This document shows positions 39,402-64,000 of a stretch of DNA of 64,000 bases, piece after piece (the first letter of the stretch is position 1; each line of letters begins with the position of its first letter). This DNA is from Citrus sinensis. Taxonomy: Eukaryota; Streptophyta; Magnoliopsida; Sapindales; Rutaceae. The notes below the pieces were generated by a model. It was not told the origin of the DNA. It worked only from the letters and a program-made list of their open reading frames with translations, and did not search any database. The position numbers were made by a program, and so were the translations under genes. The stretch covers positions 7,546,001-7,610,000 of the forward strand of contig NC_068562.1 in assembly GCF_022201045.2 (NCBI RefSeq). Direction: 5' to 3'.

Positions 39402-42400
39402 ATGCCTGTGAAGATGAATCAATCAGTGGTTCTGTTGTTGTTGTTTTTGGGCTTAATGTTGGTGTGCGTAAGTGAAGCTTCAGTGCACGAGTATAAAGGA
39501 GATAAATTTGTCAGCAAAGGGAATGCTTTTGTTGTGCATGCCGGCAGTGAAGGGATTTACTCTTCTTTCTCTGATGCTCATGTCAATGAAACCGCTGCTA
39601 ACAACGGAGATTCTTACATTCGGTAAGTTAAGTTTCAGACTCTTTTTCATATGAATCTTGATTTCTGAGTATATTTAATGGGGCTTTAAGTGGAAGAAAT
39701 TGTGATTTTGTTGTTGATTTTTTTTTTTTTGGGTGGGTTTATTGATGGTCATTTGGTTATGAGCTGAAAGTTTTGATAAGACTGGGGAATTGCAAAAGGA
39801 GGAAATATTTGACTGCTTAGAGAGTAAATCATTGAATTTCATTGAATTTTTGTTCAAATTGATTGTCGTCTAGTTTTGATGTAAGCATCTGTTATGACAA
39901 TAATGTCATTTAAATGCACATAGAGACACTTGTTAGCTCTTTCTTTTTTTAATTCAAGTGTATAAATATGAGTTAGGGAACTAGATGTGCATTTTCTTTA
40001 CACCTCTAATAAACATAATTGAAAATCCCTTTTGCATTGATGAAGTCTGAATGCTATATCTTACTTAGTCAAAATTAGTGGAATGTGAGTTAATTTTTTA
40101 TAATCTTAGCAGCACAACTATATAATGTAAGCTATGAGTACTGCATCTGACTTCTGGTTCAAAGCTGTTGATTGGCTTTGGAATTGCTATCTCATTGTTT
40201 TATGTGTTTAACTTTTTCATCTTTTGTTATTTATTCAGTAGTTAACACTGAACATGATTTGATCTTCTTGACTCTCTTCTTATGTGGTAATATCAAACCA
40301 GTTTCGAGAAGATCACATTTCGAAGATCCATCGACAATTCCAATTTCAGTTCAGGGTTGATCCAAGCCCTTGTTTTTGAGGTTGAGGATAGAGAGACAAT
40401 TGGGGGTTCAGCCTATGGAGGTCAAAGAGCTGTCTGTTGCACAGCAGATCTCTCAAAGTTGGGTGTTTGTACACAAGGAGAAGTCATCCACCGGCCTTCC
40501 ACAAAGGATCCGAGCTGGCCTCAGGTGTTTGGCATCAAATTTGAAGTAGATGAGGTAGAGGCAACATTGCCGTCAAATTCAATACAAATCACTAAAACAG
40601 GGATGTATAACTTGTACTTCATTCACTGTGATTTGAATCTGAAAGACTTGGTTGTAGAGGGCAAAAGTATTTGGAAAAATCCTACTGGCTATTTGCCTGG
40701 TAGAATGGCACCACTGATGAATTTCTATGGGTTTATGTCCCTTGCTTTTGTGATACTCGGGTTATTCTGGTTCTCACAGTATGCAAGATTTTGGAGAGAA
40801 GTTCTTCATCTGCATAACTGCATAACATTGGTGATAACACTAGGAATGTTTGAGATGGCTCTTTGGTATTTTGAGTATGCTGAATTCAATGAGACTGGAG
40901 TCAGGCCAATGGGAATCACTGCATGGGCAGTCACCTTTGGTACTGTTAAACGTACAGTTGCACGTGTTATCATCCTAATGGTTGCCATGGGCTATGGTGT
41001 TGTAAGACCCACCTTAGGTGGTCTTACGTCAAAGGTGATCATGCTTGGAGGGACCTTCTTTTTGGCATCTGAAGTGCTAGAATTGGTAGAGAATGTTGGT
41101 GCGGTCAGCGATCTTTCAGGAAAGGCCAGATTATTTCTGGTTCTTCCTGTGGCCATCTTGGATGCTTTCTTCATTTTGTGGATTTTTACCTCGCTCTCTT
41201 CAACATTAAATAAACTCCAGGTACTAGCTGCATTCTCCAGGATGTGTACTTCAGCTACCTCATTCATTTTGTTGTTGTTTTGAAGGATAAAGTTAGGTGT
41301 TTTACTTAACTGCTGATATGACGTGACAGGCTAGGAGGATGATGACTAAGCTGGATATTTACCGGAAGTTCACAAATGCTTTGGCAGTAGCTGTTATTGT
41401 GTCTGTTGGTTGGATATGCTATGAGGTAATATGGATCAAATACTGATTATGTTACTGCAAACTTCAAGGCTAATTTATCTCCTATGTCATTTCGCTTTTT
41501 TATCAGTAGGCTGCTAAGTTTAACTAAAAATTCCAGTAAAGACATGAACCATGCACAACCATTTGGTTATGAGCAAATGAAAGCAAGAGAAGTAGCTAAA
41601 TTTTGTATAATTATTAGCTTTTCAAGTTTTGGCAAAAATAGCTATAAAGAATGTAAAGTAGACCAATTTAGATCTATCTTATTCTTGCCTCCTCTGTAAT
41701 TCACATCGAGTTGTTACTTCATACAAATTTTATACTTTCTAATTGCAGCTCTATTTCAAGTCAAATGATATTTACAATGAGAAGTGGCAGAATGCTTGGA
41801 TCATCCCTGCTTTTTGGCAAATCCTGTCATTCTCTCTCTTATGTGTTATCTGTGCTCTTTGGGCACCTTCTCAGAACTCAATGCGGTATGAGGCCAGACT
41901 ACCCCAATTCTTTGTTTCCTCTATTCTCCTTTTCCATTTACCATTTTATACAGTTGCATCAATTTTTTATATTTTTTCTGGAGTTTCTTCTGAAATGCAC
42001 TCTTCTATGCATCCTGTAATAACTGAAATAAGGCTAGCCCTGCTAGCTCACATAAGAAATCACGGTGCAGAAAAAGATAATATCTAGCTACCGGTGGAAT
42101 GATGAATGCATTCAGTTGTATATTAGACTGAAGTGTGAGGTAGCTGGGTGTTTGATGGTGAGGTGACAAATAGGATTGGAAGCCTTGTTGGTTATTTTCA
42201 GTACAAAATCAAGATGCCAAAAGGAGCACTAAGTCTTTTGATGTCGCTCATATGAACTGTAATTGCTCTTGAAATATATAGTCAGAGGGTTCATGCTTCA
42301 CGCTTCACAGAATGTGCTTCTAATTTTCTGAACTTATTGAGCTCTTAATTATCAGTGTTCAATATTTTGACTCTTCAACAGGTATGCTTATTCTGAAGAC

Positions 42401-44590: not shown

Positions 44591-46483
44591 TCACTGAGAT
44601 CTCCTCCTCAGGTGCTGGGATACAGGGTACCCCTCGAAGAAATCCAAGACTGAGGTCTCCAAATCCTCAACCGAGTACTTGATGTAATTCTCTGGATGTT
44701 TTGAACTCTCTATATGGCTCCTGAACCTCCCAAGAAATGACCTGTAAGCTGGAATCAACTTCTCTGATATGGATATCCTTAGCTCCTCCCTAAGCTGAGA
44801 ATCTGGTATCAACCATGTCGCTTGAGTCCTATGAACCTCCTCAAACATTGCATTGAAGGACTTAAATCTCTCTCTCAAAGCACTTTTTGACACCCCAGAA
44901 GAAAAACCCCCACTTACATGCAATCCCTCATCTCTCAAGCAATACAACACCTTCACCCAAGTTGCTCTCTGGTAATTAGTCGCAGCCTGCCTAAATTTCC
45001 CAGTCATTTTCCTCAAATAATCATCACCAATCATTTCTCTCAATTCTGGTGAACTTTTCACTTTTTGAACAATATAGTGAACATTGTTCATCATAAACAA
45101 ATGTACTAAAGATGCATCTTTGTAGTGCTTGGACTTTCCATCCAAATTGAATTGCAAAATTACAATTACCCATATCAAATGAAGGGCTAATGGTGTCTTC
45201 CCTTCTAATTCAGCAAAATCCATATCTGGAGTTGATGGATCACCCGAATATCTAGACCCAGTTGATGGTTTTGACATTATAAGCTCAATCAATGTCTGTT
45301 TGTAATCAGAAATCAAACTGATATAATTCATCACATACCTAGTCAATGGATGAATTGTCCCTCCAGGCACTGGAACCTTTGATGGCTCCTTCAAAACAGC
45401 ATTCTCAAACTCAGATAAGATCCCTCTTGCAGCTTCAGCCAATCTTGATAGAATCTCTGCAGCCTGTACTCGAATCAAGTCAGACGATTTCGAATCAAAA
45501 ACAATCTCAATATCAGGCATCAATTCCACCAAGGCATCATGTAAATCCAGAATCTTAAACAGCTTCTCAGGTGATCTCCTGCTAATACTAATTGCCTCAG
45601 CAAAATTAAACAACTGAATAGCTGGCCCTTTAACAGTCTCCATAAAACAAGCATCATCAATAGCCGTACCAACCCCATCAAAGATTTGCTCACACAATCT
45701 CTTCTCACTTGCAAACAAGATCCTCACACAAACTTTCGCAGCTCTAATCCATCTCCTAATCTTAGTCTCAAGTGCATCCCACTCAAGCCTTTGAATATCC
45801 CCAATACTCAACTTCTCAACACCAAGTCTCTTAAAACTTGAATCAATTGCTGACTTCCTCACGCTTCCATAAACCTGAGTACACTCCCTCAAATACCCAG
45901 CAGCAATCATCCTCTCAGCTATATTCTTAAGATCCTCAATGGTCTCTTCGGGTATCAACTCGATCTCTCGAATACAACTAGTTGACCTATAACTAGAACT
46001 AACACTAGTGTTGGATTCACTATGTTTCAAAACATCATAAGTGGTACTACTAGTTGTTGAGTCAAGATGGTCTTTTTCTTGCTCTTGTCCCAGCTGCTGA
46101 CGGTCCTCATCATCATCATCAAAGTGATCACCGCCACTTTCAGTTCTTGAGCAAGAAGATGAACTGGGATCGGTTGCAAGCGAGTCAACATCAAAAGCAT
46201 GAATGTGAGCCAGCAGAATGTTCCTGAACTCATCCTCAAGCCTCGCCATGGCGATCTGGATAGCAAAGTTGACTTTTGACTGGCCGTCACCAGAGATGCT
46301 TGTGGACGAAATTGAGCGTTGGATTTCATCAACTGCTTGCAAATATCGATCCACTTCACATCGATCACCTTCGAAGATCATCTTCTCTCTTGCTTCCTCT
46401 GATGCTGTTGAGTCCCAACGAAGTATTATCTTCTCTGCTGATTCAAAGCTCCCTTCAAGAACATAATTTTCCGGTGGCTCCAT
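44591..46483 (-). CDS. EXO70D1: Exocyst subunit EXO70, D-type
   Basis: EXO70 proteins bind phosphoinositides and tether vesicles at target membranes as part of the octameric exocyst; plant D-type members are also reported as autophagy receptors. This is a single uninterrupted frame of 630 residues, fitting the intronless EXO70 subfamilies. The N-terminus (AEKIILRWDSTASEEAREKM then YLQAVDEIQRS) and the long C-terminal Exo70 helical-bundle domain (about residues 240-615) with LIWVIVILQFNL, LFMMNNVHYIVQKVKSS and PAYRSFLGRF are diagnostic. The region after SDSLATDP (about 105-165) is acidic and serine-rich, probably a disordered linker. The assignment to subfamily D rests on the MEPPE start and on gene order (At1g72470 between PRK8 and the 7TM gene, from memory), not on a tree. 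Confidence 0.94.
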   Translation of the reverse strand: MEPPENYVLEGSFESAEKIILRWDSTASEEAREKMIFEGDRCEVDRYLQAVDEIQRSISSTSISGDGQSKVNFAIQIAMARLEDEFRNILLAHIHAFDVDSLATDPSSSSCSRTESGGDHFDDDDEDRQQLGQEQEKDHLDSTTSSTTYDVLKHSESNTSVSSSYRSTSCIREIELIPEETIEDLKNIAERMIAAGYLRECTQVYGSVRKSAIDSSFKRLGVEKLSIGDIQRLEWDALETKIRRWIRAAKVCVRILFASEKRLCEQIFDGVGTAIDDACFMETVKGPAIQLFNFAEAISISRRSPEKLFKILDLHDALVELMPDIEIVFDSKSSDLIRVQAAEILSRLAEAARGILSEFENAVLKEPSKVPVPGGTIHPLTRYVMNYISLISDYKQTLIELIMSKPSTGSRYSGDPSTPDMDFAELEGKTPLALHLIWVIVILQFNLDGKSKHYKDASLVHLFMMNNVHYIVQKVKSSPELREMIGDDYLRKMTGKFRQAATNYQRATWVKVLYCLRDEGLHVSGGFSSGVSKSALRERFKSFNAMFEEVHRTQATWLIPDSQLREELRISISEKLIPAYRSFLGRFRSHIESSKHPENYIKYSVEDLETSVLDFFEGYPVSQHLRRRSQ

Positions 46484-49180
46484 GGCTTTAAATTAAAAAA
46501 AGAAAAGAAAAGAACACAACCAAAAAGGTGATCTTTCTAATTCCTTAGAAGCTGTTGCCTGTTGATGTGAAGAGGGGGGGGGGGGGGAATCCTTTTCAGC
46601 TGGTTTAGAGTAAAGGGTAATATTGGATCAACACAGAAAGGCTAAAGAATGAAGAAAATCCAGAAAAGGTGGTGGGATCTTTGATGAAGAAAGAAGAAAT
46701 TTTTAGAGTGAGATACTTTGATGATTGATTTAATTCACTAATTTTTAATTTCTGTTTTTTTTTTTTTTGGATTTTATTCTTTTGATAAGGTGTCTCCGGC
46801 TTTTGGTCTCTAGTCTAGTAAGGCAGCTGTGGTCTGTGGAAATAATTTTGTCAGTAAGCGGAAATTTTGACAAAGGATTTGAGATTGCAGTTAAAACTTG
46901 AAAACTGCTTCATGTGGGAAAGAAGAGAGGAAGGGGACGAAAATGCAACATTTTTGACTTGTATAGAAACTCTCTCAATTATCTCATTACGTGACAGTGG
47001 GGTAATCTTTTGTGGTATATTCTGGTAAAATTTCGGCAGAAGCTGCAACAAAGCTTCTGGTGTAAAAGATTTGTCCCCTTTTTTTCCCGTTGCTTCTTTG
47101 AATTTTCTGGTTTTTAATCTCCCCCAATTATTGGAGTACATAGATTTCAGCGATAGCCCAAATTTTCTTGGCCCATACTAACTGGCATCAATAATGCGCT
47201 ATAGTTACTAACTTACTATAATTGGCCCAGGCAAGCCCTTAGCTGGTCCTGTTTATGCTGATTGAATTTTGAGTGATAAACTGATTAGTATTTGGTAAAT
47301 TGGTAGGTTTAGCTTCATCAAGATTATGGTTGGGATTAGCCGATTAGGGACGGACATTTTCGGTTCCCTTCAGAATTTCCTAGACCGACCGTGATTACTT
47401 TTTGGAAGACTCGAACTGGTTCTAAACCAATTGGTTCAGAATTTTTTTGAAATGATTCTGAATTGAACCAATGTGATGCGGTTAATTTTTTGTGCACGAA
47501 TTAAAAAAAGGATTTTTTTTAAATAAATATTTTGAAGTAGATTTGGAGGATTATACGTTGGGTTTAGCTTGAAAAGCAAACAAAAGGAGCAGATGGCTAG
47601 ATGGGGTCAGATGAAAGTTTAAGGGAAATGATAATATATCAAGAAAATGAATATAAAGAAAGAGACAAATGCATTGCTTTTTATGCATTTTAACATAAAT
47701 AATTGACTAAGATTCTTTTTATGCAAACTAAATACAGCCAAGCAACAGCTTAACGTGCTTTTTTGATTAGCGAATAATTAGCATATATTCCAGTTTACCT
47801 CTGCTGCCTCGGGCCGCATACAAAAACAAAATTAAATTGTTAGAATGAGTAATTGATCCATTAATGAAGTCAACTAATCTTCTGCTAAATCAGGGTGACA
47901 TGCACGTGCATGCATGCTAGGGAGAATAATCATGCATTATCATATTGATTAAGTTTTGAAAATGATTGAGGGGTTTCAATAATTAAAGCTGTAAATCAAA
48001 CGAAAAATTTTGAGGTTGTACAGTGCAGAATTCCTTTCTTTTATGGGTTTTGAGATTTTCGGGGATCTTCGAGTGGTGATTTACGATTAATTTACTACAA
48101 TCCAGTAAAAAAAAAAATATAAATTATTTTTAAATTACGAGTTGCACGAGTGGTGCAAGTGTGATTTAGGAAGAGAAAATCTGATGAATTTTGGCCTTTC
48201 TTCATGTTGTGTTTTTGGTCCTATAAATGTTGCATGGTTGTCAAATTGATGAATCGATGCCTTTTATTTGCATAATCAATAATTAAACTCGTAATGTAGC
48301 ACTATTTAATCTTATTAACATAACACGACATGACACATTAGAGATTAGTTTCAATACTTAAGAAGGTAACTTTAATTTAAACATTTGAAAGGAATTTCGA
48401 TGTGCACACGTACAATTAAAACGTTTTTACGTGGGGCTCAAGGTCCTGGTTCAATGTGAAAGTATCGGATTCTGGGAGAATTTTAAAATGGAACATAAAT
48501 TATTTGAAAAAAGTCTGCAGTTTTGTATTTTAGGGGACTTGCATGTCAATGGTGGTTCATTGTTGTACGCCAGATTAGAATATGATCAAATTTAAGCCAT
48601 TTATATATTCATTCAATGAAACCTCCAGCTGTAGTGAGCTATGAACGTACATACATGTTGACCTAACATAACGTTTTAAATCTGTCGATGAGTTGGAACT
48701 TGCAAGTTTCAAAATCTGAGAGCTTTCTTTAATTCTCATTTGCCTCCCCAATTAACTGAGATTTAAATATTGTCTCCCTTTAACTTCGAATATGCATAAA
48801 TTCCCACACTCGCAAAATCTTTTTTCAGCTTACCAGCTGTTTAATTGCTGGTTATTTTCTTTTTTTTGGGAAGCATCTTCACTACAGAAACCATTTGCAA
48901 CGCATTCTTAAAAAGAGTAATTAATATTGCCACCCTATTTGAAGTTTGAAAAAGAAAATCAATCCGCTACGACAACATTTTATACATATTTGTTCTCTGA
49001 ATTCATCTCCCTGACCTTGCCTCGTGCAAAACTTGTAACATACATAGCCTCAATGCAACTTCAAACCCACGTAGTTTCTTCCGAATCAGCCCATGTCATT
49101 AGTTAGGTTAGGATAACGGAGAAATTAAATGTAAAAAAAACCCCAAAAAAAAAAAAAATCATCGCCATCATCATCTTAAT
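46484..49180. promoter_or_regulatory. EXO70 promoter and spacer to the PRK gene
   Basis: The EXO70 leader is at about 46484-46700 and includes a run of about 16 G at 46573-46588 that is unusual in this AT-rich window. No other gene is recognised. 47.3-47.5 kb has a patch rich in GGTTC/AACCG words that looks like a decayed repeat. 48.95-49.18 kb is the 3'UTR of the receptor kinase. Confidence 0.35.
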
Positions 49181-51297
49181 TTAACGCCCTGATATCCTGT
49201 TATCGAAGTTGTCTAATACCGATTCATGGCTTTTCCCGGATTCCTGATTCTCTGCACAGCCATGATCAAGTGTTGGCAAAATATTTTGCGATGTTCTAGC
49301 GTCCATGTTTCCATCTGATTGTTGTATCTCTACTATGCGTCTAACGGCTTCTCTCATTTCTAATCGCTGCTCAGGATCACTTTGAGTGCAGGCTCTGCCA
49401 ATTTCGAGTAGTTGTTCCATCTCACCCGGTGAATTTGTTGAGCTTGCAATCTCAGGATCAAGCAAATCTGTCACTCTTCCTTCCGAAAAAGCTGATGCTA
49501 CCCATTCAACTACATCGATCCCACCATTACCGTTGGTTAGATATTGGGAAGGAAATTTTCCTGTCAGGATTTCAAGAATGATTATTCCTAGACAGTATAC
49601 GTCGCATTTCGGTGTCACCTTCCCGGATTGAATAGCTTCGGGGGCCTTATAGGCAAATAATGCTTGTGCAAGATTGGCACTGTTAATCATTGTATAGAAT
49701 CCAAATTCTGAGATCAATGGCTCATTCTCAGGACTAATAAAGATGTTGCTTGATTTGAGATTGCCATGAGGCAAGTCTAGGTGGGCCAGTTCTGTATGCA
49801 GATAGCCTATCCCTCTGGCAATTCCTTGAACAATCTTTAACCTGGCAGGCCAGGTGAGCTCATCGTGTGATGGCCCTCGATCACCTACAGAAATCAAAAC
49901 ATTTCAGTCGTTAATGAAAACAACTTAAAATTTTGATGAAACTTAACAAGCAAGGGAACTTTCTTACCATGCAATAGATAGAGCAAGCTGCCTCCGGGAA
50001 TGTATTCGTAAACCAATAGTTTCTCATCTGCCCTGTAATGATACGCCAATGGTGCTAAAACATTACTGTGCCTTAGCCTTCCGAGCCTTCTAACCTCCGT
50101 ATCAAACGCATCTCTTGCCATTGCACTGGACTCCTTCATTCTCTTTACCACTACTGTTACCCCATCAGCCATCATAGCCTTATACGAAGATCCCAGTCCC
50201 CCGTTTCCAAGCACTTCTGCTGCTGCCTTCATCAAGTCAGGCAACCCAAAAACACCCTTTTGGCCATTCACCAGAACTAGTTCCCCAACCCCACTGTTCT
50301 TTCCATGATGAGACGACCCCCTCCGGCTTGAACTAGCCTTTCTGCTCACATCAACATCCCTACTTTTGTTTGGCACCGAAACCCGGACTTCCACTGCCTG
50401 AACACTCTCCTTCTCTAGCACTTTAAACGCCTTCCTCTTTCGCCTAATTCTTATTATAACCACAATTGCAATTGAAACTAGCATCACGCTTAGTGCTACT
50501 CCTGCAGCGATAACCTTTTTGGAGTCATCAACGTTTTCAGCAGCAGGATGAGGAGGAGGAGGAGGATGAATGTTTTTGTTTGCTGCTGATGCCTTCGCAT
50601 TGCGGCATTCAACGCCCAAATTCTTTCCACAAAGCCCTGCATTTCCTGAAAAAGAACTCGCATTGAATCTCAATAAGCTGGCCGGGATTTCCCCTTCCAA
50701 TTTATTGCTTGACAAGTTTAATCGCACCAACGTAGGTTGATCAAAAGATGGAATTGTCCCATTAAACTGATTGCTCTCGAGATGTAACTCGGTGAGATGA
50801 GGCAATTTAAACAGTGATGGAGGCAATCGCCCTCTAAACTTGTTGTTCGAAAACCAAAGCTTCCTAAGCGCACCCATTTCATCGAAATAACCCGGTGGAA
50901 TCTCACCGGAGAATTGATTCTTGTCCAAGTAGATAGCCCTCAAACCACCTAAACGACTGAATTCGGGTGTCTTACCCGAAAAAGAATTATTAGCAACACT
51001 AAATGTACGCAAACCGGTGAGTTCTGTCAATGCATCAACATCAATCTTTCCTGATAATCCCAAGCTATTGATATATAAACCCGTGACAATGCCTTCGGAG
51101 CACACTACTCCGCTCCATTCTTCTTCCCCTCCTCTGCAAGGCGCCGTGCTTGGCATCCAAGAATCAAGTGCTTTTGCATTTGTAAATGAACTCTTGAGCT
51201 TTAATAAAGCCTCGGACTCTGACATGGAAAACGTTACCGGAAATGTGATAGAAAAGAAAAAGATTGGCCGGAGAAGCCAAAGCCATGTCACGGCCAT
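49181..51297 (-). CDS. LRR receptor-like kinase, pollen receptor-like (PRK) type, probable pseudokinase
   Basis: Plasma-membrane receptor of LRR class III. Two exons on the minus strand, 51297-49968 and 49884-49181, giving 677 residues. Order: signal peptide (about 1-24), LRR N-cap with ALLKLKSSF and a C...EEWSGVVC segment, five to six LRRs (about 75-205), a GNAGLCG cap, a Pro-rich spacer, a transmembrane helix (VIAAGVALSVMLVSIAIVVI), a basic juxtamembrane stretch, and a kinase domain (about 355-620). The glycine loop (GNGGLGSSY) and the beta-3 lysine (VVVKRM) are present. However, the catalytic loop reads PHGNLKSSN where active kinases have HRDLKxxN, and the DFG position reads EFG, so the catalytic Asp is missing and the metal-binding Asp is Glu. 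PRK-family members often look like this. From memory the relative is PRK8 (At1g72460). The ligand is unknown. Confidence 0.92.
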
Positions 51298-52294
51298 TAG
51301 CTAAGCCGGATTCTTGAGGCCTAAAGGCAATTTTAGACAAATGTAATTATTACTGAATATTATTTGTGGGAATTTGTTGCAATGCTAAATTTTAGGTTGG
51401 TTTTTCTTTTCTTTTCTTTTCTTTTTTTTTAAAAAAAAAATTATATGTAATGATCTGTTAGAGCTTATTTTGTTGTTCATGTGCGTGTATTATTGTTATT
51501 ATTTTCTTTTGGTGAGTGCAAGAGAGCCTTAAAATTAGAGAGTGATGGTTATATTTTGCTTTGAAATGGTCAGCATCGAGAAACCGTTAAAACAGTTAAT
51601 TTTTCTTTTACTATTATGCCCTTGCGGGAGAGTTGAGGGTGTTTGTGCTGTGGGGGAGCAATAAATGGAATGTCAGGGGCATTTCTAGTCTAGTGAAAAT
51701 TATTGTCTGGGTATGGCGGTGCCGGAAGGGGTTCAGTACAGCGGAGGGGAGTGGTTATTGTGTTCCATGTTCCTAGTCTGGCACAGCAAAGATCGAAATC
51801 TCAACCGTCTGATTCTAACCGTTTTATTTTTGTTTAAAAAAAATTAAGAAAACTATATTTATTTATTTATTTGATAAATAAAGTAAGTTCATCTCGATGC
51901 ATATATTTTGTCATTGACTTCTCTAGTGTCTGATTTAATATCCCAAGAAAATTAAGGTCATCTTGGAAAATAAAAACTTCAGTTTTTAAAGTTTTCTCTT
52001 GATTTTTCATTTCTTGAAAAATATTTTAAGATATAATCAGGATCACACATCCCATAACAGATTGTTGCTTTTGTTTTGATTTGTTCTTAACTTCGTTAGA
52101 AAATTGTTGATTTTTGTAACGAAATTTTTTAACAAATATTTGGAGCTTTTTATTATGTTAATTTATAAAAAATAATGCAATAATTAAGTAATCTAATATT
52201 AAGCTACCATGCGATCTTTAATTAGTTTGTTGGAATTTGATCTACTCCCACTTTGCTGAAATTTTTACAATTCCATGTATCTTGATGGGTCATT

Positions 52295-57556: not shown

Positions 57557-58812
57557 CTCTTTGGGTTTCGGAAGTCAGGCGAACAACGCGACGCGACGGA
57601 GATGTTTCTTTTCTGATTTTAAATTTGTACGCAAGTGGGTCCCGCCCGTGTGTCGGCTCGTAATGAAGGCGGTGACGGTGAGAGAACAGGGAGCTAGACG
57701 CACCCACGTTATTATTCGGCCTTTTACCTAACCAACATTACGGCGACGGAGCTCTTAACTCCGTTACTAGTGCCCAAATTACCGAAGTACCCACGCCTGA
57801 TTCTCGTTGTGACTGACTGTTTCACCTTCAAAATTAGGGTAAACAATTTCAAATAAGAGCATGCTACATCCTTTGAGATATGACTTATCCATTTAAAATG
57901 AAAAGTTACTCGTTCTTCTTCAAGATTAATGAAAAGTTTAAAATTTGCGATACTTAAAATGATATCAATTGAGAATAATTTATACTCTCACGGTATGGAG
58001 GAAATCACGAGAACTTATATTTTCTACTTATGTTTGAGTCCTCTAATATATTAGTAAACTTGATTTTCAAAGCTTAGATACGGATTTAAACTTTTGTTAA
58101 ATTTTTACATTAGAATTGCGCTATCGTAATTTTTCCTCAAAGAAAAAGTGGACAGAGTCTAAATTAATTTTTTAATATCTTATTTTTCATACGATTCGAA
58201 TTTAGATAACTAGTAATTAATTTTTTTTTAAAAAAACTATTGAGTTAGACTCCTAAGAATGTGCCGTCACATAATTAATTAAAAAAATTACGTCTATTTC
58301 TAATTATAAATACAAAACATATTTATAATAATATGTATATATATAATACACGAAAAACAGAATCTCTCCCAAATCAAAGACTTGGTCCACAGCGAAAGCG
58401 CACAGTATAAGAAATGAGAATTTCAAAGAAAAGCACTCGCCTTCTCTCCCGCATTGACTGCTCCACTCCATCCAACTTTTCTTTGCCTTGCACCGTTGCG
58501 TCTCTTCTCTTGTTCTAAATACAAACAATAAAAACGTGATTTAAATAATTATTTTAAAAAAACGCTTACTAAAAAGCAACAAACAAAAAGACAACGAATA
58601 GGCAGTCGAGTTGGATAGAACATGCTTTGAAAATAACCCACCACCCTTTATATTCTCCCCTCTCTCTCTCTCTCTCTCCCAAGACCACCACAGATTCATC
58701 TCCATACGTATGAAGGCAGAATCAGATTTTTCTTGTGCACTCAAAATTAATCAACAGAAACTTTCTCTGTCTTCTCAGTTCTTACACAGGGCAGAACAAG
58801 CAACAGGCCATC

Positions 58813-59545
58813 ATGTCGAGCTCAGGCCAAAAACCCAGCGTTGCTCAGACTTGCAATCTTTTGAGTCAGTACTTTAAGGAAAATGGAAGATTTGCAAATA
58901 AAGGTACGAGCTTGTTAATTTAATTTGTCTTTCTTTTTCATGTGGGCTTTTTTGGGTTCCTCAAAGATTCCTTCTTGCAAAAACTTTTGCTGATATAAAT
59001 ATATATTTTTTCTTTTTGATGATAATTCAGGTGTGCAAACACTGAACTTGCTGCCGAACCTGGAAAATTCTGCGGAGATTTCAAGAGTACTGAATGTGAA
59101 AGCCAGTGATTTCTTCGCAAATATGCCAACTTTTGCTTCCAACAATTCCGTAAATGAAGCCAGAACGGAGCATGGAAGCTCTCAAATGACGATAATCTAT
59201 GCCGGGAAAGTGTTCGTCTTCAACGACATTTCTGCGGAGAAGGCAAAAGAAATCATGGCCTTAGCCACAAAAGCATCGAGCTCTAATGCTGTTGTTAACC
59301 CGGAATTGAACAACAACTCTCAGACGGTGCCAATAGCAAGAAGAGCTTCACTTCACCGTTTCTTTGAGAAAAGAAAAGACAGGGCTATAGCAAGAGCTCC
59401 GTACCAAGTGAATTGTCCTTATTCATCAGTGGCTCCTGCTGCTGCCGCTGCTCCTCCTCCTCCAAAGCCAAAAGATCAAAGCAAGTACTCATGGCTGCAC
59501 CTTGAAGGCCAATCGTCATCAAAACAGCTTGATCTCAACTTGTAG
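58813..59545 (+). CDS. JAZ: JAZ repressor, JAZ5/6-like, copy A (degron-bearing, no Jas intron)
   Basis: Nuclear co-repressor of jasmonate signalling: it binds MYC factors through Jas, and COI1 with JA-Ile triggers its degradation. Two exons, 58813-58903 and 59031-59545, giving 201 residues. The conserved N-terminal block is AQTCNLLSQYFKENGRF. The ZIM domain starts SQMTIIYAGKVFVF (TIFY core at 84-89, with Ile in place of Phe). The Jas motif runs VPIARRASLHRFFEKRKDR then AIARAPYQV (about 130-157), so the PIARR degron is kept. The protein ends LDLNL (197-201), an EAR motif that can recruit TOPLESS directly. No intron interrupts Jas, unlike copy B. The C-terminal EAR and ARAPYQV place it with Arabidopsis JAZ5/JAZ6. 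The start was chosen because the MSSSGQK start is shared with copy B. Confidence 0.95.
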
Positions 59546-60526
59546 TGTGATGGGTTCGCCATCTTATTCAACTACTGCCATATATAGGCTTTATTAACTG
59601 AAATTTCGACCATATTAATTCTTCTTAGGTCTATTGTGCCTTTGATTATTCATACAGATTTTTGCTGCTATTGTTATTAATATTTTCAAGTAGTTAAGCC
59701 ATCATGAATGTTTTCTGTAAGTTTCATTCGACTACAGATACTACCTTCGCAAGTAGCCGGAGAATAAAGTAACTCTCTTCAATCAGAATTGAAGTTGAAG
59801 AGATTGAAGAGAGAGAGATTCTTGTTGAGTGTTTATGAATTGAAGGGATAGTGGTGTTTGAGAACTTTCATCAACTTGAAGTTCTCCCAGCAATCTCTTT
59901 CAATCAACTTACAACAAGATCCAAAATAAATAATGAATCAAGATTTTTTTTTTATTTTTTTATTTGTCAAGAATGTGTGGATACCGGACTACTAATAATA
60001 AATTGGACTCGGACATCGACTTAGGAAACCGCGTGGGCTCGTAGTATTGTTGTGTATTTGATTGATTTGAAAATTCGTGTTCACAATAACCAAAACATGT
60101 GATGTGTGAAGTGTGAAGTGGTGAACCAACGAAAGGTCTTTGAAGCTTCTGAATTTCAACTCTTTTTAACTTTTTTTATTTAAGATTATTATTACTAAAT
60201 GAAATATTATATCACAGAAAAGAATCCCACAGTCCATAATAACATTTTCTGACAGAAAAAAAAAAAGAGAAAAAAATCCTGTGTTTAATGGTCGGCATAC
60301 TTTAATTTGAAGGCTTACCAATTCCCAGTTCTTCATGTGTGGTGTGGTGAGTAATGTTAATTAGTACAGATCATTTTGAGCTAATCATATTTGCTGATAT
60401 TAAATCATCAAATTCGCAGTTATGCATGGTGCATCCATTCCTCGTTTGGTTCCTTAGCCATGGCCTCCGCCCTCCAGGCCAAAATCTGAAAATTTTGAAA
60501 ATTTACGAGTTAGCAGGGAAAATATG

Positions 60527-61140
60527 GGTAATTTTTAAAAACCTCCCGTGAAATTTGGACTTGTTGCAAGTAGATGGCGAGAATCTGTTTATTTGTAAAA
60601 AACCCCCTACCGTCAGTTAACTTTAACATTGACCGTTAGTTGACTGTGCAAAGACAATATTACCCTCAACAACAATTTGTAGACGGAAATAACTAAAAAA
60701 AAAATTAAAATTATTGGCGCGAAAAGCACAAACCCTATTTTTTTGACAATTTTATCCTTGTCAATTCCAAAAATTTACAATATCATAGGTAAAGATTATA
60801 ACTATTTCATTTTCAAGTTTTTAATTTTATCTTTTTTGTAGAAACTTTAAGAAAATATCAATAATTTAAAGAGGATTTTTAAAATTTTTAATTTTATCTT
60901 TCTTGTAGGAACTTTAAGAAAATATCAATAATTTAAAGAGGGTAAAATAGCCAATAATTTTAATTTTTTTTTAGTTATTTCCGTCTACAAATTATTGTTA
61001 AGGGTAATATTGTCTTTGCACAGTCAACTAACGGTCAATGTTAAAATTAACTGACGGTAGAAAATTTTTTATAAATAAATTAATTCTCGCCATCTGCTTG
61101 CAACAAGCCCAAACTTCAGGAAGGTTTTTAAAAATTATCC
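60527..61140. mobile_element. MULE-like element with about 190-bp terminal inverted repeats
   Basis: The arms 60527-60720 and about 60946-61140 are inverse copies at roughly 85-90% identity. Shared words in inverse orientation include GACTGTGCAAAGACAATATT, TTGTAGACGGAAATAACTAA and TTGTTGCAAG. The centre has a 60-bp tandem duplication (about 60830-60945). The flanks GAAAATATG (60518-60526) and GAAAAAATAT (61141-61150) could be a diverged 9-10 bp target-site duplication. Long arms with such a duplication suggest a Mutator-like MITE. No transposase is encoded. Confidence 0.7.
60830..60945. repeat. Tandem duplication of about 60 bp inside the MULE-like element
   Basis: The words TTTAATTTTATCTTT, then AACTTTAAGAAAATATCAAT and AATTTAAAGAGG, occur twice in the same order, with two or three base differences. 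Confidence 0.85.
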
Positions 61141-62251
61141 GAAAAAATATCTGATGGGTTTGGGTCCCACCACATGTTTGTGGCTCAGGGGTCATGGCCT
61201 CCAGCCCAAAATCCAAAAATTTAAATTATATGAAGTATGTGGGGTTTGGGCGATAAAAATCTTGCCTTTTTGGGGTTCTGAACTACGTGTAGATTTTATT
61301 TTTTTTTGCTATTTTCTAAATTTTTACTTAATGACAACTTGATTTCTTCTCCACCATGTGAGTGGGTTCAAACTTAAAATCATTTATAACACCTTATCAA
61401 ATTTTATCAGTAAGCTAATTGAAAACTTGCATATGGAGTGTTTGCTTGAAAGTAAGAGAAAAGATCACCAAAAGTTTTAATATTTATCTCATTAAACAAT
61501 TAGAACCCTTCATTTAAAAAAAAAAATTGAACTTCCTAGATCATTACCATATTCTTCAATGTATAATTTTGGACGAAAAATCCTTTCCATATATATATAT
61601 ATATATATCCACTCATGTGATAAAATCAAATAAATTATTTTAATATTCACAGTAATTAAATATGTCAACAAATTAAGAAGTAACATGTGTCTCCAACTTC
61701 AAATTTGCAAAGGAAGCAACCAAGGAGCAAACATTACATTTATATAATCCAAAATTCTTTTAGATATTTGATGACACTGAAACATTCAAAGTAGGAAGAG
61801 CCAATCACACGATTCACAACTCACAAGTCACAACCATCTCCCTCCCTCAGTCCTAACCTTTCAAATTTCAATGTCCCAAAAAATAATAATAATTCTTCTA
61901 ATCTTCTCTCTCCACCAACCTTGACTTCTCCATCGCCCACCTTAAAATTAAAAAGCAATTAATTTTTCTTTACTTTGGCCAGTTGCCCGCCCTCTGGCGC
62001 CAAATAAAGTTATAGAAACAATTAAAACGTGCTTGAAACTAATATTTTAAAACATTTATTTGTGGATAAAAAGAAAGCAACCAAGCAAAGACAACTCATA
62101 CCCAGACAAGTTGAAGGAACGTACTTTCTAAGGCCACCACCACACCATTCATTATACATATAAAGCAAAGAGTATGTTTTCTTCTTCACCAAAAGTTGAT
62201 CCACAGAAAGTTTATTTGTCTTCTCAATTCTTATTCCAAAAGGCTACAAGC

Positions 62252-63132
62252 ATGTCAAGTTCGGGCCAGAAATCATCGAGCGTTGCTCAAACATGCAACC
62301 TTTTGAGCCAGTACTTCAAGGAAAATGGAAGATTTGCTTCAAAACCTGCAGCTAATCAAGGTACAAGTTTTTTTTTTTTATTGCATTCACATGGGGGTTT
62401 GAGTTGTTTTTGGTTGAGCTTGCATGGAGATTCAGAGATGAAATCTGAGCAAATTTTGTTTTTTTATGATTTATTTTTCAGGTAATGAATCGGATTCAAG
62501 GCAGCAAGCAACAACAATGAATTTGTTGCCAAACCTGGAAAATTCTGCTGAGATTTCAAAACAAGATGTAAAAGCCAATGATTTCTTTGCAAACATCCCA
62601 AGTTTGGCCGCCTCCAATGTGATGAATGAAGCCATATCGGGGCAAGGAACCTCTCAAATGACGATATTCTACGCTGGAAAAGTGTTTGTTTTCAGCGACT
62701 TCCCTGCAGAAAAGGCAAAGGAAATCATGGCCTTAGCCACCAAAGCAGCAAGCTCTAATGTTATTCCAGACTTGAATATGGCTTCCACTTTTCGCAACAA
62801 CAACAATGATGCAACCCCACTTCAGTTCCCAAGTGCCTCTCTTCAACGTTTCTTTGATAAAAGAAAAGAAAGGTAACAAGTTGTTATCAATCTGTTTTCT
62901 ATTTCCCCTTTTCGGGTAAAACTTCCTTCTTGTTTATGAAATGAGTAATTTTTTTAATATATATTAATGCTTGCATGGCCTTGTAATTTCCAGGGCTGCA
63001 GCAAGAGCACCATACCAAGTAAAGAATCCTTCTTCAATGGCGGCTGCGCCTGCAAAACCAGAAGATCAAGGCAAGTATCCAGGCCTGGAGCTTGAAGGTC
63101 AATCTTCAAAACAGCTTGATCTGAACTTATAG
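62252..63132 (+). CDS. JAZ: JAZ repressor, JAZ5/6-like, copy B (degron-altered, Jas intron kept)
   Basis: Tandem paralogue of copy A. Three exons, 62252-62360, 62482-62872 and 62994-63132, giving 212 residues. The N-terminal block AQTCNLLSQYFKENGRF is identical to copy A. The ZIM domain carries the canonical TIFYAG core (97-102). The Jas region reads PLQFPSASLQRFFDKRKER (149-167) and then, across the intron at 62873-62993, AAARAPYQV. The SL.RFF.KRK part that binds MYC is preserved, but PIARR, the loop that seals JA-Ile into COI1, is replaced by QFPS. The EAR motif LDLNL is retained at the end. The Jas intron falls after KRKER, as in many JAZ genes; retaining it would end the protein early. 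An in-frame upstream ATG at 62174 exists, but the MSSSGQK start is shared with copy A and preferred. Reduced hormone-dependent turnover is inferred. Confidence 0.94.
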
Positions 63133-64000
63133 TGGAACTGTTCGCCATCCTATTGAACTTATAGATCCATAGGCTTTATACTTGAAATTGAAATCCTTTG
63201 TCATGATGTACTTGTTAGATCTTTTCTACTTTTGATTCATACAGATTTTGTAACTACTACTACTAATTTACTATTAATTTTCAAGGAGCATATAGACATC
63301 ATGTTCTTTTTGATGCAGTTTTGTGAATTATGTTTGTTATTTCCACCAAATTGAGGTTCCTAAAGCAACCTCTTTCAATCTCGTTGTATCATTAACAAGA
63401 TGGAAGATCAATGTCAAGATCGTCCAAAGCGTATCAATGGTGTGATTTAATTACTTATTATTATTTTGAGAATTTGTTATGCGTGCATAAAAATAATATG
63501 GACTGGGGGCATCTGCTCAAAAACCGTGTGGGCTCGGGTTGTTATGTACGTATTTGATTTGAAAAACATTTTACAATAAGCAAATATAAAAGGGTAAAGT
63601 CGTTGAACCTTCCGAAATTGAACTCAATTTTTATTAAAAAAGCTTTATATTAAATATTCTCTCGGCAAGAGCATAACTTATATAAGCTCCATTTACTAAA
63701 AAAAAAAAAAAAAAAAAAACCAATCTTGTTCAATGGTTTTGAGACTTTAATTTGTTTGCTTGCCAATTTTCAGTTCTTCACGTATTGTAACAATCTCATC
63801 TGTCATAAGAAAATACAGGAAGTGATGTTTGTTTAGTATGTAACATTTTGAACTAATGATATTCACTGATATGAAATCAAATATGAAGTCAATGCTTCCA
63901 TTTCTTTTGTTCGGTTACCCAATTTGTTAGTCTATCTCTGATTAGCCAAACAATTCTAATTTTTGAGCCATAAAACAGGATTTTCAAAATCTAAAGCTAC
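63133..64000. other. 3' flank of JAZ copy B
   Basis: 3'UTR and the duplicated flank of the tandem unit run to about 63.89 kb. A run of about 20 A lies at 63699-63719. No further gene is visible before the window edge. Confidence 0.5.

Follow-up and report, generated by a model that had tools for sequence, protein, structure and literature searches.

A 64,000-nt stretch of the sweet orange (Citrus sinensis) genome (G000:C7:7546001-7610000 on contig NC_068562.1; hereafter the window) carries two genes for JAZ repressors of jasmonate signalling, copy A and copy B, arranged head to tail. Copy A has a canonical jasmonate degron, whereas in copy B the degron loop is rewritten and both of its arginines are gone. 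We consider it somewhat more probable than its negation that copy B is an intact repressor that still docks on the receptor COI1 in a manner dependent on jasmonoyl-isoleucine (JA-Ile), with altered and probably weaker loop contacts, so that its clearance comes later, or is less complete, than that of copy A. On this best reading, copy B still responds to the hormone, but slowly or in a different manner. Co-receptor assembly in jasmonate signalling is held to require the two arginines, and copy B, a natural JAZ that has neither and yet is a reported COI1 binder, offers a ready-made test of which contacts matter, with its tandem partner of normal loop as a natural control. If copy B is indeed cleared more slowly than copy A, the locus would be a built-in pair of fast and slow repressors in a fruit crop.

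The span 58813..63132, marked by a first-pass annotation of the window, starts exactly at the copy A ATG and ends at the copy B stop codon. Copy A is intact and consists of two exons (58813-58903 and 59031-59545) separated by a GT-AG intron of 127 nt (58904-59030) and encodes 201 amino acids, with QTVPIARRASLHRFFEKRKDRAIARAPYQV running uninterrupted within a single exon. Copy B consists of three exons (62252-62360, 62482-62872 and 62994-63132) separated by two GT-AG introns of 121 nt each (62361-62481 and 62873-62993) and encodes 212 amino acids, or 238 if read from an in-frame ATG at 62174; here ATPLQFPSASLQRFFDKRKER is followed, across the Jas intron, by AAARAPYQV. The genome that holds the window measures 299.7 Mb in 11 contigs. 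Both proteins have a TIFY domain above the Pfam cut-off (tify, PF06200; 1.5e-15 for copy A and 1.3e-17 for copy B) and a Jas match above the cut-off (PF09425; 6.4e-13 over model positions 1-26 of 26 for copy A and 3e-8 over positions 6-26 of 26 for copy B). The Jas motif, SLX2FX2KRX2RX5PY (PMC3439424), is present in both, as SLHRFFEKRKDRAIARAPY in copy A and SLQRFFDKRKERAAARAPY in copy B, and both proteins end in LDLNL.

The difference lies in the loop preceding the Jas helix, which reads VPIARRASLHRF in its context in copy A and TPLQFPSASLQRF in copy B. Specifically, degron positions 5 and 6 are R,R in copy A, in agreement with the canonical LPIAR(R/K), and P,S in copy B. Degron-spanning JAZ peptides of known structure align through the loop in copy A (Table 1), and because the Jas match of copy B begins at model position 6, its missing model positions are those of the loop. 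The gene model and the Pfam match thus uphold the first-pass annotation, which had read QFPS in copy B where PIARR is expected. It had also raised a splice acceptor that restores PIARR, and a sequencing error. Three degron patterns ([LVIM]Pxx[RK][RK], IAR[RK] and [AQ]R[RK]xS[LV]) have no match in the six frames of 61900-63300, so that no splice choice restoring PIARR in copy B is seen; a sequencing error is contradicted by the open frame and by the same proline in the independently described protein CsJAZ2 (PMC12528651). A single-base error would not account for the change in copy B, where the loop is rewritten and the frame stays open. The alignment of the loop itself is ambiguous, in that protein MAFFT places one extra copy B residue between Pro and Ala and DNA MAFFT opens no gap. 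One of the six residues encoded by the aligned codons before ASLHRF is identical between the copies, and since 9 of 187 such windows are equally low or lower, divergence alone does not set the loop apart.

Copy B has a counterpart in print. According to Hu et al. (2025; PMC12528651), sweet orange, the source of the cloned CsJAZ coding sequences, has 14 TIFY-like proteins, seven of them JAZ; R205 of Arabidopsis JAZ1 (AtJAZ1) is replaced by P179 in CsJAZ2 and by M99 in CsJAZ7. The odd proline of copy B is residue 153, which becomes 179 with the 26 residues added from the ATG at 62174, and the methionine of the genome's JAZ8-like gene is at residue 99. By this numbering copy B is CsJAZ2, and the ATG at 62174 is apparently the start used for it. 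Our genome scan gave 13 TIFY matches, one below the 14 of the paper, and 16 Jas matches, seven of which were assigned to JAZ proper; two of these seven are without R205, CsJAZ2 with its proline being one of the two and a JAZ8-like protein the other. The other nine Jas matches appear to be eight PPD-, ZML- or other CCT-type genes and one broken copy. The CsJAZ2 Jas domain is described as well conserved within citrus and diverged in related genera (PMC12528651). The protein is therefore already described, and its degron variant had been read correctly from the DNA. The main text of that paper mentions neither introns nor duplication nor splicing and uses "tandem" only for mass spectrometry, and the parts examined mention neither the loss of R206 nor the degradation of CsJAZ2. 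The text searched holds no report of a partner without a Jas intron, of a broken copy on contig C5 or of a cysteine in citrus COI1 at the Tyr472 position, and no other paper on this citrus pair was recognised among the matches listed, which were open-licence PMC papers. Transcripts of orange JAZ1, JAS1, JAZ6 and JAZ8 have been measured (PMC12112142) and are not assignable to copy A or B.

In pull-downs, JA-Ile supported the binding of CsJAZ1-6 to CsCOI1 and jasmonic acid (JA) did not, and the authors singled out CsJAZ2 as a CsCOI1 binder despite its proline; in contrast, the JAZ8-like CsJAZ7 bound weakly and only with coronatine, and JA-Ile-dependent binding is not reported for it in the sections drawn on here (PMC12528651). 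Copy A presumably corresponds to one of the remaining JA-Ile-dependent binders of this set. Because CsJAZ2 binds CsCOI1 with JA-Ile, the earlier description of copy B as constitutively stabilised is unsupported at the binding step, while the weak response named there as the alternative may still apply. Strong JA-Ile-dependent COI1 binding had been named as evidence that would speak against that description; JA-Ile-dependent binding, the same in kind, is reported, and its strength is not stated in the text. The suggested parallel to JAZ7/8 by an independent route divides in two: the loss in copy B is independent, since the genome has a separate JAZ8-like gene, whereas the functional parallel fails at the binding step, where CsJAZ2 binds with JA-Ile and CsJAZ7 weakly and with coronatine only.

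Several points weigh against our reading, and some of them support the view that copy B is constitutively stabilised and functionally like JAZ7/8, both degron arginines being gone, which we regard as unlikely while taking it seriously. The degron loop is lost in copy B, which, as the first-pass annotation held, has no PIARR; with it are gone both arginines that Arabidopsis JAZ1 needs. The R205A/R206A substitution stabilises Arabidopsis JAZ1 in protoplasts (PMC6953042), degron-less JAZ8 is said to escape degradation, and strawberry JAZ1 with both residues of its Arg-Lys pair mutated formed no complex (PMC7347570). From the JAZ1 and strawberry double mutants, copy B would be expected to bind COI1 poorly or not at all. 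Additionally, the CsJAZ2 pull-down used 10 uM JA-Ile (PMC12528651), and data on affinity, degradation, and MYC or TOPLESS binding for copy B were not found in the literature searched. On the other side stands the pull-down itself, with its contrast between CsJAZ2 and CsJAZ7.

Two ways out of the surprise of binding without arginines are proposed here, helix-led docking and COI1 adaptation, the latter also suggested by the authors of the binding study (PMC12528651). For the former, the COI1 crystal structure 3ogk contains a JAZ1 peptide whose first residues are the two arginines and which is labelled "incomplete degron"; this indicates that docking without the LPIA part is possible. It is a weak precedent, since its peptide keeps both arginines, absent in copy B, and this too counts against us. 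Arg206 has been modelled in contact with inositol phosphate (PMC6058352), and in tomato the residues just past the short degron also set affinity (PMC8245654). Strawberry FaJAZ1, with its IPMQRK degron, resembles copy B in having a non-canonical loop with supported COI1 binding (PMC7347570), and differs in that its basic pair is kept as R-K where copy B has P-S.

We retain, as the favoured reading, a slowed and still hormone-dependent copy B, and propose the following. Copy A, its Jas intron lost, would act as an ordinary jasmonate-degradable repressor. Copy B is selectively maintained; its COI1-sealing loop has been replaced, whereas the TIFY domain, Jas helix, X5PY and C-terminal LxLxL remain. 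It would dock on COI1 via the Jas helix in a JA-Ile-dependent manner with altered, probably weaker, loop contacts, and would persist for longer or in larger part than copy A, which would prolong repression. We infer the helix-led docking, the lower affinity, the slower turnover, and the binding of MYC and TOPLESS.

The two copies are a direct tandem duplication, as the earlier pairing implied: the duplication units (Table 1) match in eight same-strand pieces at 70-86%, with ungapped pieces up to 92%, and the match continues outside the coding parts on both sides. A retrocopy origin of copy A was considered and is ruled out by its retained intron 1 and by the extension of the unit match past the gene on both sides. 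In our reading, the pair is an old tandem duplicate. Synonymous divergence (dS) and the ratio of nonsynonymous to synonymous divergence (omega) were computed with a Nei-Gojobori script from one alignment, with 192 codons compared and gapped codons dropped; dS between the copies is 0.64 (bootstrap 95% 0.45-0.91) and omega is 0.30 (0.19-0.46). By segment, omega is 0.06 in the TIFY domain, 0.23 in the Jas helix, 0.24 in the N-terminal part, 0.50 in the C-terminal part and, at the top of the five, 0.93 in the linker and loop (23 codons). Both copies thus look maintained under purifying selection, and the loop region looks relaxed or changed. The overall omega also led us to reject copy B as a pseudogene. 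Between the units lies an inverted repeat, probably an element like a miniature inverted-repeat transposable element (MITE), whose centre holds a 65-nt direct repeat (60810-60941).

Citrus COI1 (gene at G000:C4:754000-762500, L043, minus strand) and Arabidopsis COI1 (AtCOI1) are identical at 413 of the 577 columns of their alignment, a total that includes columns with gaps. Among 47 positions of our own selection, 43 agree with AtCOI1, including R85, R348, Y386, R409, Y444 and R496; the differences are at 442, 443, 472 (Tyr to Cys) and 499. Y469 of strawberry COI1 is listed as JAZ-binding and is conserved in strawberry, apple, grape, tomato and Arabidopsis (PMC7347570); by offset it would be AtCOI1 Tyr472. 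This lead is weakened by R494 of the same strawberry list, which falls by the same offset on an AtCOI1 glycine, and by the differences at the three other positions. A role of the Tyr472-to-Cys change in copy B binding is accordingly a lead, not a demonstration.

These observations bear on a further view, that citrus COI1 is adapted to the rewritten loop, which would then serve as an alternative degron of full function and let copy B turn over no less well than copy A. It draws on the JA-Ile-dependent pull-down, on the cysteine at a site listed as JAZ-binding in strawberry, and on the good conservation of the CsJAZ2 Jas domain in citrus. We think it distinctly unlikely: among the five segments omega peaks in the linker and loop, citrus COI1 keeps all six residues named for JA-Ile binding in strawberry COI1, and quantitative binding data were not found. 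That citrus has evolved a second, arginine-free jasmonate reading, in which the rewritten CsJAZ2 loop and the cysteine at COI1 position 472 together restore JA-Ile-dependent binding, is more speculative still, and we hold it improbable.

A broken relative on another contig bears on how the loop was changed. The copy at G000:C5:31158695 (L028, 1279-1823) is a disrupted relative of copy B with frameshifts, stops and missing pieces. Over the 396 columns common to all three, it equals copy B at 326 and copy A at 280, and copies A and B are identical at 300. It shares copy B's extra codons before the loop and has the Jas intron, and its loop is closer to copy B's than to copy A's, yet at the R206 position it reads AGG (Arg) and copy B AGT (Ser). 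By parsimony, and resting on one codon of a decaying gene, the rewriting of the loop would have preceded the loss of the last arginine in copy B; on the speculative view of an arginine-free jasmonate reading, the broken copy would mark a step towards it. The existence of such a copy is what could be said for an artefact in copy B (pseudogene, mis-splicing or sequencing error), which we dismiss as highly improbable given the open frame, the canonical splice sites, the lack of a degron pattern in other frames, the omega of 0.30, and the same proline printed for CsJAZ2, whose coding sequence was cloned (PMC12528651).

The gene models also bear out the earlier claims that copy B keeps the Jas intron and that copy A has none and could not make Jas-intron-retention isoforms. 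In copy B the intron splits the Arg codon after KRKE as AG/G (phase 2), in line with published JAZ genes, where a phase-2 intron lies inside the Arg codon after KRKx (PMC10298640). Its retention would read AGG TAA, an immediate stop, giving a predicted form of 167 amino acids that ends in KRKER and is without APY and LDLNL. Signs of an intron occur at the same place elsewhere in the genome: the frame of the C9 JAZ1-type gene stops directly after KRKDR, with RIVARAPYQVN about 0.3 kb further; that of the C4 JAZ10-like gene (so called by likeness to 5t0q) stops directly after KRKER; and in the broken C5 copy an intron-like stretch occupies this position. These signs in the C9, C4 and C5 genes suggest an ancestral Jas intron that copy A has lost. 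It is also absent from the JAZ8-like gene on C2 and from Arabidopsis JAZ1, JAZ7 and JAZ8 (PMC7450174), so that the lack of a Jas intron in copy A is not exceptional.

Copies A and B have an LxLxL end, and their N-termini align to JAZ1 8t2i. We take the EAR motif of JAZ5/6 to lie at the C-terminal end. This is at odds with its placement in the N-terminal domain in PMC7450174. JAZ1, 2, 5 and 6 are grouped, with EAR motifs in JAZ5 and JAZ6 (PMC6829463); we place the pair in this group, where its LxLxL end and JAZ1-like N-terminus would fit the JAZ5/6 part, and regard it as probably of JAZ5/6 type. Grape has a single JAZ tandem cluster, the counterpart of AtJAZ7, whereas its counterparts of AtJAZ1/JAZ5 lie in duplicated blocks (PMC3439424). 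Arabidopsis JAZ8 and citrus CsJAZ7 resemble copy B in their JAZ architecture, an LxLxL motif and the absence of LPIARR; the citrus JAZ8-like gene is a different gene, with its LxLxL at the N-terminus (MRRNYNLELRL) and no Jas intron. Arabidopsis JAZ1 resembles copy A in its canonical degron and lack of a Jas intron (PMC7450174), whereas copy A has an LDLNL end and stands in tandem with a degron-variant copy.

Table 1. Features of the JAZ pair, its surroundings and the JAZ genes of the genome (window positions unless a contig is named)
Feature	Position	Strand	Basis or remark
Copy A, JAZ gene, canonical degron	58813..59545	+	GT-AG sites, open frame, Pfam tify and Jas
Copy A degron loop V-P-I-A-R-R	59327..59344	+	aligns with JAZ1 degron peptides 3ogl/3ogm and 4yz6
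Copy B, JAZ gene, CsJAZ2 by numbering	62252..63132	+	open frame, Pfam tify and Jas, residue numbering
Possible N-terminal extension of copy B, 26 aa	62174..62251	+	upstream in-frame ATG and CsJAZ2 residue numbering
Copy B rewritten loop P-L-Q-F-P-S, replacing the degron loop	62817..62834	+	3ogk and 5t0q align only from ASLQRF on
Copy B Jas intron	62873..62993	+	phase 2 in Arg codon
Upstream duplication unit (promoter-proximal part, gene, 3' flank)	58519..60407	+	matches 62012-63879
Downstream duplication unit	62012..63879	+	matches 58519-60407
Inverted repeat between units, probably MITE-like	60533..61134	.	arms 177 nt, 88% complementary
GOST 7TM gene	40291-41280	+	Pfam; neighbour of the JAZ pair
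Exo70 gene	44594-46492	-	Pfam; neighbour of the JAZ pair
LRR receptor-like kinase gene	49184-51300	-	Pfam; neighbour of the JAZ pair
Seven JAZ genes	A, B, C9:29697503, C4:28570470, C9:30199196, C2:24120951, C2:31840290		Jas matches

The neighbouring GOST 7TM, Exo70 and leucine-rich repeat (LRR) kinase genes presumably also flank Arabidopsis JAZ6, which a literature search did not confirm. Rfam gave no match at gathering thresholds across the window, and tblastn (E up to 1) revealed no tandem JAZ copies other than A and B in the window and 10 kb on each side. A weak JAZ-like tblastn match on the other strand just outside the window (L030, 687-749; E 0.098) is probably due to chance. Within 1500 nt upstream of each gene, CACGTG G-boxes number two for copy A (57494 and 57551) and none for copy B. 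AACGTG occurs at equivalent sites upstream of both, at 58533 for copy A and 62026 for copy B.

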